A stretch of DNA of 20,200 nt from a virus, in the IMG/VR virus record IMGVR_UViG_3300037493_001133, positions 1-20,200 of that record; one strand, 5' to 3'. The position numbers and the translations under genes were made by a program. Shown here one piece after another: positions 14,543 to 20,200 of this stretch; position 1 is the stretch's first letter, and each line of letters starts with the position of its first letter. Below the pieces are notes generated by a model. The model was not told where the DNA came from and did no database searches. It saw only the letters and a program-made list of their open reading frames with translations.

Positions 14543-15007
14543 ATGCCCTACATCCGTCGCCAGTTCATCCACAACGGTGAAGTTACTGCCCCCAAGCTGG
14601 AGGCCAACGCCTTCGACGGGGCCATCGTCGCGAACACCACGCCCGTCGCCCCTAGCGGAACGTCGGCTCCGGTGATGCCGCTCGTCGTCATCCTCAACAC
14701 GCCTGACGCTGCGGGCGACACGACCTACGTGCTCCCGTTCAAGTGCCGCATCGTCGGCGTAGCGGTGCAGAAGATCAACGCTGCGACCGGTGCGTTCATC
14801 AACACGGTCCAGCTCAAGAACGGTGCGAACGCCGTGTCGAACGCAATCAGCTTCAACAACAACGCGCGCGGTCATACGAACTACGCCAGCTCGATTGACG
14901 ACACCTACAGCACGTTCAACGCTGGGGTGAGTGCGACCCTCACCGTCGTCAAGGCTGGCGGCAACGCTGAGTTCGCGGTTGTCGTGACGCTCGTTCGGGT
15001 GGCCTAA
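14543..15007 (+). CDS. Putative virion surface protein, beta-rich, 154 aa
   Basis: ATG at 14543 (MPYIRRQFIHNGEVTAPKLE), with AGAGGA 6 bases upstream. After a short polar start, residues about 45-154 show alternating hydrophobic strands with Gly/Asn/Thr turns (TTYVLPFKCRIVGVAVQKIN, SATLTVVKAGGNAEFAVVVT). This resembles small jelly-roll or immunoglobulin-like phage decoration and fibre-base proteins. There is no membrane segment. It starts the plus-strand block that leads into fibres, and its TAA overlaps the next ATG (TAATG). The exact role (capsid decoration or fibre base) is not decided by sequence. Confidence 0.6.
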   Translation: MPYIRRQFIHNGEVTAPKLEANAFDGAIVANTTPVAPSGTSAPVMPLVVILNTPDAAGDTTYVLPFKCRIVGVAVQKINAATGAFINTVQLKNGANAVSNAISFNNNARGHTNYASSIDDTYSTFNAGVSATLTVVKAGGNAEFAVVVTLVRVA

Positions 15008-15378
15008 TGAGTGCCGTCGCCCCTCAGCCCGTCTCTCGGCTGACGGGCACGACGGGTGTGTCTGGGGCGACTACCCAGACCGACCTGGTCGTGTCTGACC
15101 GGCTCACCAAGATCGTCATCAAGCGCGTCAAGCTCAAGCGGACGGCTGGTGCTGGTGCCAACTTCACACCGCGCATCTTCAAGGTGAGCGGTGCGGCGAA
15201 CGGCAGCATCGACCAGGAGTTCGTGGGTACCGCAACTGCGGTAGCCGACTTGTTTGACGTGGTTGCTGAGGTCTACGTCTTCACGGATGCCACAGGGAAG
15301 CTGTACCTTCAGCCCTCCCCGGATGCTGGTGCAGACAACGTCTTCCAGTACGAAGTCTACTTCGACATCGTCCGCTAG
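15007..15378 (+). CDS. Putative virion surface protein, beta-rich, 123 aa
   Basis: The start overlaps the upstream stop by one base (TAATG), which implies translational coupling. Strand-like segments (TKIVIKRVKLKRTAG, LFDVVAEVYVFTDATGKLYL, FQYEVYFDIV) are separated by Gly/Ala/Asp turns. It is similar in size and character to the protein before it, and the two may form a pair, but I found no clear residue identity between them. No motif or membrane segment is seen. The role is inferred from position upstream of the adhesin. Confidence 0.55.
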   Translation: MSAVAPQPVSRLTGTTGVSGATTQTDLVVSDRLTKIVIKRVKLKRTAGAGANFTPRIFKVSGAANGSIDQEFVGTATAVADLFDVVAEVYVFTDATGKLYLQPSPDAGADNVFQYEVYFDIVR

Positions 15379-15386
15379 GAGGTAGC

Positions 15387-16298
15387 ATGGGCAGCTCTCA
15401 AGTACTTCCTACGCCGCTTAGCGGTGGTGGCGGCAGCGCGTATACTCCCACGGTTGATGGCTGGTTTGGCGATGGCATGGACGGAGATGCAGTCCTTGCC
15501 GTTCTGACCACGCTTAGCAGGGAGACGTACTATGGCAACCTGACGATTACGGGAACCGGCACGCTAAAGCCCGCTGGTTTCCGTCTCTTCGTCAAGGGGA
15601 CGCTGACCATCCAGGCGGGCGGCTCCATCAACGATGACTTCAACCCAATCACAGGCGCAGTTGGTGCTACCGGAGGTACGGGCCTCGCAGCACGGAATAC
15701 GCTGAACGCGCAGGCCGGTGGTGGCGGCGGCGGCGGGACAAACGCTGTTGGCGGGGCCGGTGTCACTTCCGGTGGCAACAGCTCCCTGAACGGTGCGGGT
15801 CTTGCTCCTGCCGGTTTAGCCGGAGGGGCGGGTGGAGCTAACCTCGGTGGCGTCGGTGGAGCTTGCACGCAGCCCACTCAGGGCCAGCGTTGGCACGGCA
15901 CGGCTTGGCCGCAGCAGGGACGCTTCAACAACGGTGGTGCCCAGCTCCCGTTCAACGGTGGCAGCGGTGGCGGCGGGGGCGGGTCCAACAATGTCCTGTG
16001 CTCAGGCGGCGGCGGCGGCGCGGGCGCAGGTCTTGTCTGGGTTGCGGCGAAGAATGTGGTGAACGCTGGTCGCATCTCAGCCAACGCTGGCGCAGGCGCG
16101 AACGGCGCAGGAACTGCGGGTGACGCAGGTGGTGGTGCAGGCGGCGGCGGCGGCGCGGTCCTTCTTGCCACCACCACAAGTGTGGCTTCTGTCGGGATTG
16201 TCCAAGCTCTTGGCGGGGCTGGCGGCACAGGCTTTGGGGCAGGCGGGGCTGGTACGGCAGGTAGGCCTGGTTCGGTTCAGGTGGTGGTGCTGGTATGA
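15387..16298 (+). CDS. Glycine-rich tail fibre adhesin/receptor-binding protein
   Basis: 303 aa behind a near-perfect AGGAGGT site 3 bases before the ATG. Residues about 26-78 (TYYGNLTITGTGTLKPAG, FRLFVKGTLTIQAGGSI) are a beta-strand head of a type commonly joined to a Gly-rich body. Residues about 80-300 are extremely rich in Gly, Ala and Asn, with repeated poly-Gly runs of 5-7 (111-117, GGSGGGGGGSNN near 190-202). Gly-rich sandwich domains are known in phage adhesins such as T4-like gp38 of S16, where polyglycine-II helices pack behind receptor-contacting loops. The non-Gly stretch TQPTQGQRWHGTAWPQQG (about 162-179) may be an exposed loop. Role: host recognition, by analogy. Confidence 0.7.
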   Translation: MGSSQVLPTPLSGGGGSAYTPTVDGWFGDGMDGDAVLAVLTTLSRETYYGNLTITGTGTLKPAGFRLFVKGTLTIQAGGSINDDFNPITGAVGATGGTGLAARNTLNAQAGGGGGGGTNAVGGAGVTSGGNSSLNGAGLAPAGLAGGAGGANLGGVGGACTQPTQGQRWHGTAWPQQGRFNNGGAQLPFNGGSGGGGGGSNNVLCSGGGGGAGAGLVWVAAKNVVNAGRISANAGAGANGAGTAGDAGGGAGGGGGAVLLATTTSVASVGIVQALGGAGGTGFGAGGAGTAGRPGSVQVVVLV

Positions 16299-16480
16299 AC
16301 ACCCAGACATGGCTCATCTTTGAGGCTGACGCGACTCAGTCCTACATTGACGCGCAGCTCGCCCAGCATCCAGATACGGGCAGATACTTCCTTGGGTGCC
16401 CGCCGTTCCTCCAACAGCAGGCGGCTGACGAGGGGTGGACGTTTGAACCGCCGCATGTCTGGGTGGAGATGCTGCCGTGA
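16295..16480 (+). CDS. 61-aa protein coupled to the adhesin gene
   Basis: The ATG overlaps the adhesin stop as ATGA, and the next gene's GTG overlaps this stop as GTGA, so it is translationally embedded in the fibre cassette. It begins MNTQTWLIFEADATQSYIDA and ends GWTFEPPHVWVEMLP. It is acidic, with five aromatic residues in the last half, and has no membrane helix or motif. Small proteins next to adhesin genes can be fibre-assembly chaperones, but nothing here identifies that. Function unknown. Confidence 0.6.
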   Translation: MNTQTWLIFEADATQSYIDAQLAQHPDTGRYFLGCPPFLQQQAADEGWTFEPPHVWVEMLP

Positions 16481-17988: not shown

Positions 17989-18183
17989 ATGACCTACCTA
18001 GAGCAGATCGAACAGTACGTCGGGTACTACCCGAAGACTGCGTTCGCCTCCGTGCCCGTGACCTGTGGCGTAACGACACTGCCCGCGTATCCGGGTGTGG
18101 TGGTGCATATCTGGGAAGAAGACTACTGCGAGCTGGAGGACGCGACCAAGCAAGAGATCGCGAGGTTTAAGCTTGTAGGTTAA
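17989..18183 (+). CDS. 64-aa protein of unknown function
   Basis: ATG at 17989, 8 bases after the preceding stop, with GAGGA ahead. It begins MTYLEQIEQYVGYYPKTAFA and has two cysteines (26 and 47) plus an acidic patch (IWEEDYCELEDATKQE). There is no membrane helix and no known motif. It sits between the virion genes and the membrane protein that begins the lysis block. Function unknown. The start and frame are supported by the SD and by tight packing with neighbours. Confidence 0.6.
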   Translation: MTYLEQIEQYVGYYPKTAFASVPVTCGVTTLPAYPGVVVHIWEEDYCELEDATKQEIARFKLVG

Positions 18184-18204: not shown

Positions 18205-18489
18205 ATGGCACTAGAGACTTTTGTTGCAGCAGTCACCGGACCTCTTGGCGCGCTTGCGCTCGCAATAGGTATCCTTTGGTGGCTTGCGACAAGGCTTGTC
18301 CCGGTCTTTCAGGCGTACCTTGAGTCTCAGGCTGTGAGCTTAAAGAACATGGTCGTCGCGCTAGAGAAGAACGTCGCCGCCCATGAGCGTGACCGAAAGA
18401 TGTTTGAGGCTGCGATTAGCCAGCTTGACACGCGACTAGACCGTGTCGAGTCCGACATCCACACCATCAAGAACAAGCTTGTACCGTAG
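18205..18489 (+). CDS. Membrane-anchored coiled-coil protein, BhlA/spanin-like candidate
   Basis: 94 aa with an N-terminal hydrophobic helix at about 8-29 (GPLGALALAIGILWWLAT), then a charged region whose hydrophobic residues fall in heptad steps from about 42 to 92 (LKNMVVALEKNVAAH, ISQLDTRLDRVESDIHTI). One helix plus a coiled coil is the layout of BhlA/UviB-type holin-like proteins and of inner-membrane spanin subunits. No lipobox gene follows, so spanin is not favoured over a holin-like role. It lies three genes upstream of the endolysin. Topology (N-out or N-in) cannot be told. Confidence 0.6.
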   Translation: MALETFVAAVTGPLGALALAIGILWWLATRLVPVFQAYLESQAVSLKNMVVALEKNVAAHERDRKMFEAAISQLDTRLDRVESDIHTIKNKLVP

Positions 18490-18497
18490 GAGCCACC

Positions 18498-18683
18498 ATG
18501 CCCATCGACACCAAGGAAGCCATCGCTCTGGCCGTGGAAGCGGAGGGACTGGTCGAGTTTATCGTCAAGTCCCTCAAGCCCGATAGCCAGGGGAACAAGC
18601 GTCTCGACAAGTCTGAGGTGCGCGAGCTGCTCCAGCGTCTCGGCCTGTTCACTGCTCACGTTGCACGCGACTACGTGGACTGA
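18498..18683 (+). CDS. 61-aa protein with EF-hand-like loop
   Basis: ATG at 18498 with AGGAG 5 bases upstream. Its TGA overlaps the holin ATG (TGATG). It is helical: MPIDTKEAIALAVEAEGLVE, then a turn, then VRELLQRLGLF. Residues 29-40 (DSQGNKRLDKSE) follow EF-hand loop spacing, with D29, N33, D37 and E40 in ligand positions, but Q31 and K34 replace the usual Asp/Asn and Gly. Calcium binding is therefore doubtful. A second 61-aa protein at 19738 aligns without gaps. Placement inside the lysis block suggests a lysis-timing or accessory role, which is unproven. Confidence 0.6.
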   Translation: MPIDTKEAIALAVEAEGLVEFIVKSLKPDSQGNKRLDKSEVRELLQRLGLFTAHVARDYVD

Positions 18684-19129
18684 TGGAACCCACAGATACC
18701 GCAAAGGATGCCATCGTCGCCCAGGTGGTGGACGATGCCGTCATCGTGGAGCAACCGACTGTGACGGTCGCAGAGGTTGCAACGGTAGAGGCCAGCGGTG
18801 TCTTCTCTTCCCTGTACGACACGCAGGGCGGCACCGTTGCCGCTATCTTATTCGGCCTCGCGGTCGTCGTCGTCGTCCAGCTCCTCGTCGCGCGGATCTT
18901 CTCGCGAACGAAGAGCATGGTTGAGTCTCTGACTTTCTTCGCGACCTCGATGGTAGCGTTTCTGGTCGCGGTCTATATCTGCGACCTGCTCATCGCTGGG
19001 CCCGACGTGCTCCTGCTCCGGGAAGGCGAACGGTCCTCCATCGTTTCGTTCATCGAGGACATTTGCCTTATGACGTTCGCGTACTTTTTCGGGACCAAGA
19101 ACGGGAGCGTGACGAATGACCCTGACTGA
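18683..19129 (+). CDS. Putative holin with three membrane helices
   Basis: 148 aa, starting in a TGATG overlap. An acidic, polar N-terminus (1-48) is followed by three hydrophobic segments: about 51-72 (TVAAILFGLAVVVVVQLLVA), about 84-105 (TFFATSMVAFLVAVYICDLL) and about 120-137 (IVSFIEDICLMTFAYFFGTK). Holins permeabilise the inner membrane so that the endolysin can reach the wall. Helix count, length and position directly ahead of the endolysin support the call. The long N-terminal extension (about 50 aa) is unusual for a class I holin. The ATG of the endolysin overlaps its 3-prime end by 14 bases. Confidence 0.7.
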   Translation: MEPTDTAKDAIVAQVVDDAVIVEQPTVTVAEVATVEASGVFSSLYDTQGGTVAAILFGLAVVVVVQLLVARIFSRTKSMVESLTFFATSMVAFLVAVYICDLLIAGPDVLLLREGERSSIVSFIEDICLMTFAYFFGTKNGSVTNDPD

Positions 19130-19565
19130 ACACTTCTCCTTCGAGGAGCTCACCCGCACGGGCAAGGCCGACCTCCAGGACGCCAACCGCCGCGAGGCCC
19201 GCGACTACTACGACCGGCTCAAGCTCGTTGCCCAGATGCTGGAAGTGATCCGCGCGAAGTTCGGGGCCGTGCGCGTCAACTCTGGCTTCCGAGGCCCCGC
19301 CGTCAACGCGGCAGTGGGCGGGAGCGCCACCTCCCAGCACTCCAAGGGCGAAGCCGCGGACATCGTGTGTCCCGCCGTCACGGTGGACGAGCTCCACCGC
19401 TGGATCGTGGTCGAGAGCGGGATCGCCTTCGGCCAGTGCATCCTGGAGAAGCCGCCTGGTAGCGCGTGGCTGCACATTAGCCTCGGTGCGCCCTACCGGG
19501 ACCCGAAGCGATGCGGCGAGAGCCTGTACTTCGATGGCAAGACCTACACGCCGAAGCGTTACTAG
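19116..19565 (+). CDS. Endolysin, M15-type zinc peptidase (D-Ala-D-Ala carboxypeptidase-like)
   Basis: 149 aa, ATG at 19116 with GGGAG 8 bases upstream. The M15 signature is complete: VNSGFRGPAVNAAVGG, then SQHSKGEAADI, giving zinc ligands H75 and D82, and WLHIS with H120 as the third ligand. The family cleaves peptide bonds in the peptidoglycan stem; here it acts as the lysis enzyme with the adjacent holin. No signal peptide is seen, so release through the holin is expected. It is a single-domain enzyme with no wall-binding domain. Its third-position GC is higher than in the membrane protein at 18205 (see findings). Confidence 0.9.
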   Translation: MTLTEHFSFEELTRTGKADLQDANRREARDYYDRLKLVAQMLEVIRAKFGAVRVNSGFRGPAVNAAVGGSATSQHSKGEAADIVCPAVTVDELHRWIVVESGIAFGQCILEKPPGSAWLHISLGAPYRDPKRCGESLYFDGKTYTPKRY

Positions 19566-19584
19566 GTCACCTAGGGGACCCCTA
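19562..19584. promoter_or_regulatory. Two overlapping odd palindromes after the endolysin gene
   Basis: CTAGGTCACCTAG at 19562-19574 and TAGGGGACCCCTA at 19572-19584 are each perfect 6-bp arms about a single central base. Their centres (19568 and 19578) lie exactly 10 bases apart, one helical turn. They overlap by TAG, and the first covers the endolysin stop codon. Such spacing suits tandem dimer binding. A one-base loop cannot form a tight hairpin, so a terminator is less likely. Role inferred. Confidence 0.4.
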
Positions 19585-19656
19585 CCCCAGAAAGGCGACG
19601 CGCTACCCCGGCATGGTGTCGAGGCGGCGCGTCGTCTCGCTATGGGGTACTCTGTG

Positions 19657-19678
19657 CGTGCGCTTAATCGGGCGCACG
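19657..19678 (+). repeat. GC-rich hairpin in the 172-base gap
   Basis: CGTGCGC (19657-19663) pairs with GCGCACG (19672-19678) across TTAATCGG, possibly with two G-U pairs. Only TT follows on the plus strand, so it is a poor terminator. It may be a leader structure for the 61-aa gene at 19738. The gap (19566-19737) otherwise shows no gene and no clear promoter. Confidence 0.35.
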
Positions 19679-19737
19679 TTGCCCTCGGCGTCCTCGGCAT
19701 AGTGTCGGGGCAGTCGGGGGCGACGAACAGGAGGCCC

Positions 19738-19923
19738 ATGCCCTACGACCCTGCCGAGCTAGTCGAGCTGCCCACTGAGGTGCTCGCCGTCATCACGGAA
19801 ATGCGCGCCGCGACCCGTGCGAGTAGCGACGGCGGGACCAAGGTCACGCGTGCCGAGCGCCGGCGCATCGTCCGCGCCGCGCTTCATCTGGCGTTTGTCC
19901 TGACGCGCGACGGGATCGACTAA
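19738..19923 (+). CDS. Second 61-aa small protein
   Basis: The start is the ATG at 19738, chosen for AGGAGG three bases upstream. An in-frame ATG at 19642 has no SD and the longer reading from 19486 overlaps the endolysin. The protein is MPYDPAELVELPTEVLAVIT, then SSDGGTKVTRAERRRIV, ending LTRDGID: two amphipathic helices around a polar Gly turn. It aligns end to end with the 61-aa protein at 18498 (13 identities, no gaps). Its TAA overlaps the next ATG (TAATG). Function unknown. No membrane segment. Confidence 0.65.
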   Translation: MPYDPAELVELPTEVLAVITEMRAATRASSDGGTKVTRAERRRIVRAALHLAFVLTRDGID

Positions 19924-20200
19924 TGGCCGTCACCCTCGCGCCCACCCACCTCCCGCATGTGCAGGTCATCACGACCGGCACCTCGAATGTCTGCACGCAG
20001 GTCAACCTGCCAGCTACCAGGCACCTCGCGCTCAACCTTCACAACCGAGACAACGCCACGAAAGAGGCGATGGTGTCCTTTGACCAGACCTTGACCGACG
20101 GCGGCGCAGCCCCGGCTACCGGGGGCTGGACCATCGACGCGTACCTCGCGTACAACGTCAACGGGAACGGCGCGAACGGGGTGGCTAGCATCACCAAGCT
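19923..20200 (+). CDS. Unknown protein, C-terminus beyond the window
   Basis: ATG at 19923 in a TAATG overlap with the preceding gene. The frame is open for 92 codons to the window edge, starting MAVTLAPTHLPHVQVITTGT. It is beta-prone, Asn/Gly/Thr/Ala-rich (FDQTLTDGGAAPATGGWTID), with no membrane helix and no motif. The composition suggests a virion surface protein, but this is weak evidence. Coupled translation with the 61-aa gene implies co-expression. Length and domains beyond the edge are unknown. Confidence 0.6.
   Translation, partial: MAVTLAPTHLPHVQVITTGTSNVCTQVNLPATRHLALNLHNRDNATKEAMVSFDQTLTDGGAAPATGGWTIDAYLAYNVNGNGANGVASITK

Follow-up and report, generated by a model that had tools for sequence, protein, structure and literature searches.

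A family of small, predicted helical-hairpin proteins beside an M15 endolysin in uncultured phages, and two divergent members around one lysis cassette

A close described counterpart of the proteins reported here is Gp1 of mycobacteriophage Ms6, a small lysis-cassette protein that partners an endolysin; according to PMC6116114, it binds and protects its endolysin, helps to keep it stable and is required for a full burst. A second counterpart comes from the virion. The alpha-claw of PhiM1 (gp44) is a helix-turn-helix dimer on the capsid and the alpha-paw (gp43) is related to it, according to PMC11440229. In the PhiM1 record, read with PDB matches, the alpha-claw and alpha-paw genes are followed by one more gene, the holin, the endolysin and the tailspike, and in PPWS1 a relative of the alpha-claw lies directly 5' of an Rz-like spanin. 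These gene orders indicate that a small hairpin gene can adjoin lysis genes without itself serving lysis.

We analysed 20,200 nucleotides of an uncultured virus (IMG/VR record IMGVR_UViG_3300037493_001133, positions 1 to 20,200; hereafter the window), in which two 61-codon genes, copies A and B, flank a putative holin gene and an M15 endolysin gene (Table 1). Related records carry L numbers. Our proteins are likened to Ms6 Gp1 by its described role, not by sequence; the partnership with an endolysin is proposed from our analysis, the binding is putative, and overlap with the endolysin gene is seen in two of our subtypes only, C and D. They may resemble the PhiM1 proteins in a length close to the ~62 residues of the alpha-claw, in two predicted helices joined by a loop, and in a gene close to holin, endolysin and tailspike. 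However, there is no profile similarity to them, and the present family also occurs in phages without the window's capsid gene.

Table 1. Features of the lysis region in the window
Feature	Position	Strand	Basis
64-aa gene 5' of the module	17989..18183	+	50-77% identical in A- and B-type loci holding it; no family
94-aa putative lysis-region membrane protein	18205..18489	+	single hydrophobic segment at the N-terminus, plus a coiled coil
Copy A, 61-aa helical-hairpin family (fold predicted)	18498..18683	+	sequence, profile, model and tree evidence
Putative holin, 148 aa, hybrid	18683..19129	+	N-terminus like A-lineage L024/L027, remainder of B-type class
Inferred recombination interval in the holin gene	18751..18803	.	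L027 similarity ends at 18751, B-type begins at 18803; protein scores
M15 peptidase endolysin, 149 aa	19116..19565	+	Peptidase_M15_3 E 3.7e-14; phrog_894 endolysin E 2e-29
Conserved 88-nt GC-rich hairpin between endolysin stop and copy B	19573..19660	+	alignment and model scans
Copy B, 61-aa helical-hairpin family (fold predicted)	19738..19923	+	sequence, profile, model and tree evidence
116-aa gene start, cut by record end	19923..20200	+	1-base overlap with copy B; 88% (L003), 87% (L004)

Homology and predicted fold of the 61-residue proteins

A preliminary description of the window had reported two products of 61 residues each, with 13 identities in an ungapped alignment and a one-base overlap of each gene with the next start; it read them as duplicates that could be an undescribed lysis accessory or regulator pair, with chance similarity as the alternative, and suggested profile comparison, structure prediction and a count of copies in related phages. 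The lengths, coordinates and all 13 identities were exact, and both overlaps are present (stop and ATG in TGATGG and TAATGG). The copies are only 21% identical and BLASTP of A against B alone gave no alignment, as would be expected of two unrelated helical proteins that resemble each other by chance. Every control contradicted this explanation, which we consider extremely improbable. The ungapped BLOSUM62 score of 53 lay about six standard deviations above shuffled sequences (mean -43, sd 16) and was matched by none of 20,000 shuffles, while at least 13 identities were reached in 0.12% of them. None of the non-family ORFs of 50-75 aa from the fetched loci (937 in all) reached the local score of 56, nor did any of the 813 61-aa pieces cut from the window's own gene products.

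The suggested profile comparison gave a significant similarity over the full length: in hhalign, profiles built from 2 A sequences and 9 B sequences gave a gap-free alignment of columns 1-60 (E 1.1e-5, probability 82%). Among the six-frame ORFs of the loci, the profile of the two A sequences matched the B members of L020 (E 2.8e-6) and L027 (E 3.6e-6), and its best reversed-ORF match among 7,682 ORFs had E 4.0. The best reversed-ORF match of the B profile reached E 0.01, and its matches near 0.001 to C-type members were for this reason not relied on alone. Furthermore, types A, B and C align nearly gap-free, and copies A and B share one predicted fold. Sequence comparison thus makes it nearly certain that A and B are homologous, if distant, relatives, and rejects the chance alternative of the preliminary description. 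Another 61-aa gene of the window (16295-16480), 79% identical in L048, was not matched in the family search and is unrelated as far as tested.

AlphaFold2 predicted matching hairpins for the two copies, with helices at residues 5-25 and 38-60 in each (pLDDT 89.8 for A and 80.9 for B, the weaker of the five models in each job being at ~60); both were built on one joint alignment and are not independent. Both helices are amphipathic, and no long hydrophobic segment was found in the family (highest 19-residue mean hydropathy 0.9-1.4). The family protein is modelled as a two-helix hairpin of ~61 residues without a transmembrane segment, which we infer probably dimerises. Its acidic inter-helix loop, which contains D-x-D-G in many members of types A and C, resembles an EF-hand. 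This candidate was rejected: A scored 12.3 bits against the Pfam EF-hand_6 cut-off of 25, B was unmatched, and the best PDB profile had E 0.069. The usual residues at positions 5-6 of an EF-hand are absent from the family loop, and the loop is degenerate in type B.

To define the family, IMG/VR was scanned with five of its members (A, B, a second A-type, one C-type and one D-type) as well as the endolysin, and every six-frame ORF of the loci was searched with profiles. Together these gave 32 distinct rows. These fall into four subtypes, A (7), B (15), C (8) and D (2, with a shortened loop), and E7, G32, E40 and D61 are invariant across the 32-row alignment. Coding selection acts on the family and is purifying, with dN/dS between 0.08 and 0.35 in all 11 pairs that yielded a ratio; for copy B of the window and that of L003, dN was 0.06 and dS 0.82. 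In the 61-column tree, where most forks are without resolution, A and B are separated by a fork supported at 89/88 (not starred, midpoint rooting). The divergence of subfamilies A and B is ancient.

None of the 32 members had a credible match in Pfam, PHROGs or NCBIfam, where E values were 0.016 at best. Six members compared with 50,697 phage records found nothing, or partial matches with E 0.8 or worse; an alignment-based viral scan confirmed nothing for the family, and Foldseek matches had E 1.1 or higher in PDB and E 0.19 or higher among viral models. All VIA-align rows were below Z 8, a level that excludes nothing. Among the titles listed for small proteins of lysis cassettes and for duplicates flanking such cassettes, none describes the family, which leaves its unpublished status unproven. 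The 61-aa family is without a name in the libraries searched, and small orphan families are a common kind in phage late regions. What began as an odd resemblance has become a defined family with clear subtypes, near-constant length and a characteristic position. What is new here is probably this family itself, small proteins as yet without a name that are encoded after one kind of endolysin.

Origin of the two copies in the window

Of 38 records searched by profile, most of which may be fragments, 32 contained the family, with 33 copies in all; the set comprised one MAG and 37 virus records, among them the window's. The count of copies was exactly one in 31 of the 32 family-bearing records and two only in the window. 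The six records without a family match (L028, L033, L036, L037, L038 and L039) have endolysins 38-59% identical to the window's.

We found that the window changes its relatives within the lysis region. To the left, the A-type records L002 and L048 match gene 14543-15007 at 82-83% identity and gene 15007-15378 at 89-96%; in B-type loci with the family gene in the lysin slot, the former is unmatched and the latter 42-52% identical. The 94-aa coiled-coil gene is 63-85% identical in the A-types L002, L024, L025 and L046 only, with no B-type match. The capsid protein and terminase of the window are 96% and 95% identical to those of L048, 88% and 90% to those of L027, and 87% and 88% to those of L002. 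To the right, the endolysin (95%), copy B (92%) and the 116-aa gene (88%) resemble those of the B-type record L003, and the endolysin is 62-73% identical in L002, L024, L025, L046 and L048. A 204-aa ORF on the minus strand at 14261-14875 matches phrog_2423 by its last 43 residues alone (E 1.8e-6); the true coding region is therefore probably a good deal shorter, and divergent from the gene at 14543.

The change could be placed within the gene called holin here, a name that rests on hydrophobic segments and the place before the endolysin, as 18683-19129 had no holin family match. DNA similarity to L002, L024, L046 and L048 stops at 18681-18689, and that to L025 already at 18644. A short similarity to L027 covers 18699-18751, and similarity to B-types with the window's holin class starts at 18803-18809. 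At the protein level, the first 40 residues scored 63 with L027 and 68 with L024, against 31-45 with seven holins of the B-type class, whereas the rest of the protein scored 423-431 with the B-type class and 22-24 with L024/L027. All holin N-termini look related (scores with other holin-like proteins were 48 for L004, 41 for L010 and 53 for L046), and the lineage of the N-terminus is thus assigned by score difference only. The switch in scores, together with the limits of DNA similarity, places the crossover most likely within the holin gene.

These results make it very probable that the two copies met by recombination inside the holin gene. There, an A-type phage would have recombined with a B-type phage and acquired everything from the holin C-terminus through the endolysin, the hairpin and copy B to the 116-aa gene, its own A being retained. 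Two other records show that subtype and place are exchangeable. In L027 the backbone is A-type (the two left genes are 68% and 89% identical) and the family member B-type, and in L021 an A-type member lies after the endolysin (endolysin 78%). Duplication in situ was rejected for the window, as A and B lie across the 89/88 fork and every other family-bearing record is single-copy. The window is a metagenome record that matches two lineages either side of ~18750, so that two phages of one sample might have been joined in assembly; however, the hybrid holin gene reads through as one complete frame and is tightly spaced from both its neighbours, and in L027, whose backbone is related, a family member likewise precedes the holin, which makes such a chimera quite improbable. 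In L024 (685-860), ~25 codons of a virion structural gene of the phrog_1645 type are left between A and the holin region, as if deleted, and L024 with this remnant is a plausible intermediate.

A recombination origin also bears on the duplicated pair around the lysis module that the preliminary description had envisaged. The link to lysis genes stood, in all 32 copies assessed, while the functional pair did not, given the single copy in nearly all records and the different lineages joined at the holin gene. Module swapping can thus leave two divergent versions of a one-copy gene flanking a lysis cassette, mimicking a designed pair.

Gene neighbourhood

The gene upstream of the family gene is a lysis-region gene in all these 32 copies, an M15 endolysin in 25 and a membrane/coiled-coil gene in 7; the copy of L049, cut by a contig end, is outside the count. 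Spacing depends on the type. In type C the family gene and the endolysin stop overlap by 4 bp (8/8) and in type D by 1 bp (2/2), the copy of L021 has no gap to the endolysin, and B-type copies after an endolysin lie 101-175 bp away (14/14). The membrane/coiled-coil gene is 8-11 bp from the family gene in its 7 copies; the window's 94-aa protein has weak PHROG matches to phrog_1009 (unknown; E 7e-5) and to an Rz-like spanin (E 0.002).

Downstream, a gene of the 116-aa type follows 14 copies, the phrog_1645 virion structural gene 4 plus one remnant, and a 123-127-aa gene 8, a count that leaves out L030 and L043, where the ORFs picked downstream were out of frame and of 66 aa, respectively; the holin comes next in 2 (window A and L027) and nothing in L006. 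The 116-aa gene overlaps the family gene by 1 bp, stop to start, in 13 of the 14 B-type copies after an endolysin, and its full-length relative gave no family. The gap to the phrog_1645 gene is 3 bp in 4 A-type copies.

All six records found by family queries only (L002, L042-L045 and L048) carry the same endolysin family, indicating that the link between family and endolysin is not an effect of endolysin-based searching. The window's capsid protein and terminase were found in 5 of the 37 virus records and the family in 31 of these 37, which suggests that the family tracks the lysis/appendage module and not one capsid, the records being possibly fragments. In L036, an endolysin is followed by a structural gene with no family gene between. 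Taken together, the family accompanies the M15 endolysin/appendage module in uncultured phages with differing capsid genes, normally as a single copy.

The strongly conserved 88-nt hairpin lies at the same place in 15 of 15 B-type records aligned, and an exact IMG/VR scan with its core returned 11 records with one match each, all already known B-types. Folding z-scores were -2.8 in the window and -5.4, -4.0 and -1.6 in others. The hairpin had no Rfam match, and none of 30 pairs had both sides changed; without such covariation we make no claim of a structured RNA. The hairpin may separate B from the endolysin message. Weak matches to the hairpin model lie just 3' of the endolysin in the A-types L023/L046, L024 and L025. 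A second, weaker match to the same model was seen at 19679-19725 of the window (E 0.076) and at 5939-5985 of L003 (E 0.012).

Candidate functions

From its gene order, we tentatively propose, as the likeliest function, that the family protein is soluble, stays in the cytosol and serves as an accessory to the endolysin or to lysis timing. The protein would act as a binding partner, chaperone or antagonist of the endolysin, in an action resembling that of Ms6 Gp1. The position after an endolysin in 25 of 32 copies and after a membrane/coiled-coil gene in the other 7 counts for this role, as do the stop overlaps of types C and D. Against it count the next gene, mostly a possible virion gene, with an appendage linkage nearly as strong; the hairpin and wide interval in the 14 B-type copies; the six endolysin-bearing records without the family, with the gene order of L036; and the precedent of a known 62-aa helical capsid decoration gene beside lysis genes.

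That precedent defines a virion role, in which a helix-turn-helix dimer would form a four-helix bundle on the capsid, like the PhiM1 alpha-claw, and the gene would lie among lysis genes merely through late-gene interleaving. The family agrees with gp44 (62 aa; PMC11440229) in size and predicted topology, and the PhiM1 and PPWS1 gene orders fit as well. VIA-align matched 56-residue capsid chains of HRP29 (8eld_H; Z 6.5, rmsd 2.8, 55 aligned) and PhiM1 (8vb0_K; Z 5.1, rmsd 3.7, 55 aligned), but these Z values are within the tool's noise for helical models. Furthermore, hhalign found no sequence relation to gp44/gp43 (probability 0.1, one aligned column), and the family is far more widespread than the window's capsid protein among these possibly fragmentary records. 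We regard decoration as unlikely, although it is the strongest rival. A variant, that the protein is a small chaperone or adaptor of the virion or appendage gene directly 3', would account for the close junctions with the 116-aa and phrog_1645 genes. However, the downstream partners are mutually unrelated in the searches made, the partner is absent in L006, a holin comes next in the window (A) and L027, and L036 has the structural gene without the family, so this variant is unlikely. Jointly, decoration and the appendage chaperone are possible, at well under an even chance.

The endolysin accessory is kept as a tentative reading, and the whole explanation, comprising the family, its mosaic arrangement in the window and an accessory role, falls a little short of an even chance. 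The window pair is a mosaic by-product, and the specific part is formed by the endolysin-coupled C and D types. If the endolysin were bound, the idea of an endolysin chaperone or antagonist would extend beyond the mycobacteriophage case. It is a doubtful extension that endolysin-coupled small helical proteins, as chaperones or antagonists of M15 endolysins, move as a lysis/appendage cassette among phages with unrelated capsids, and that the two divergent versions in the window could tune different partners.

A genome scan with the endolysin also found L049 (JAEMRB010000095.1), a 3.5-kb contig in a Chloroflexi MAG bin that holds the lysis region, the hairpin and the truncated B-type copy. This contig may be a hint to the host or a misbinned phage contig.
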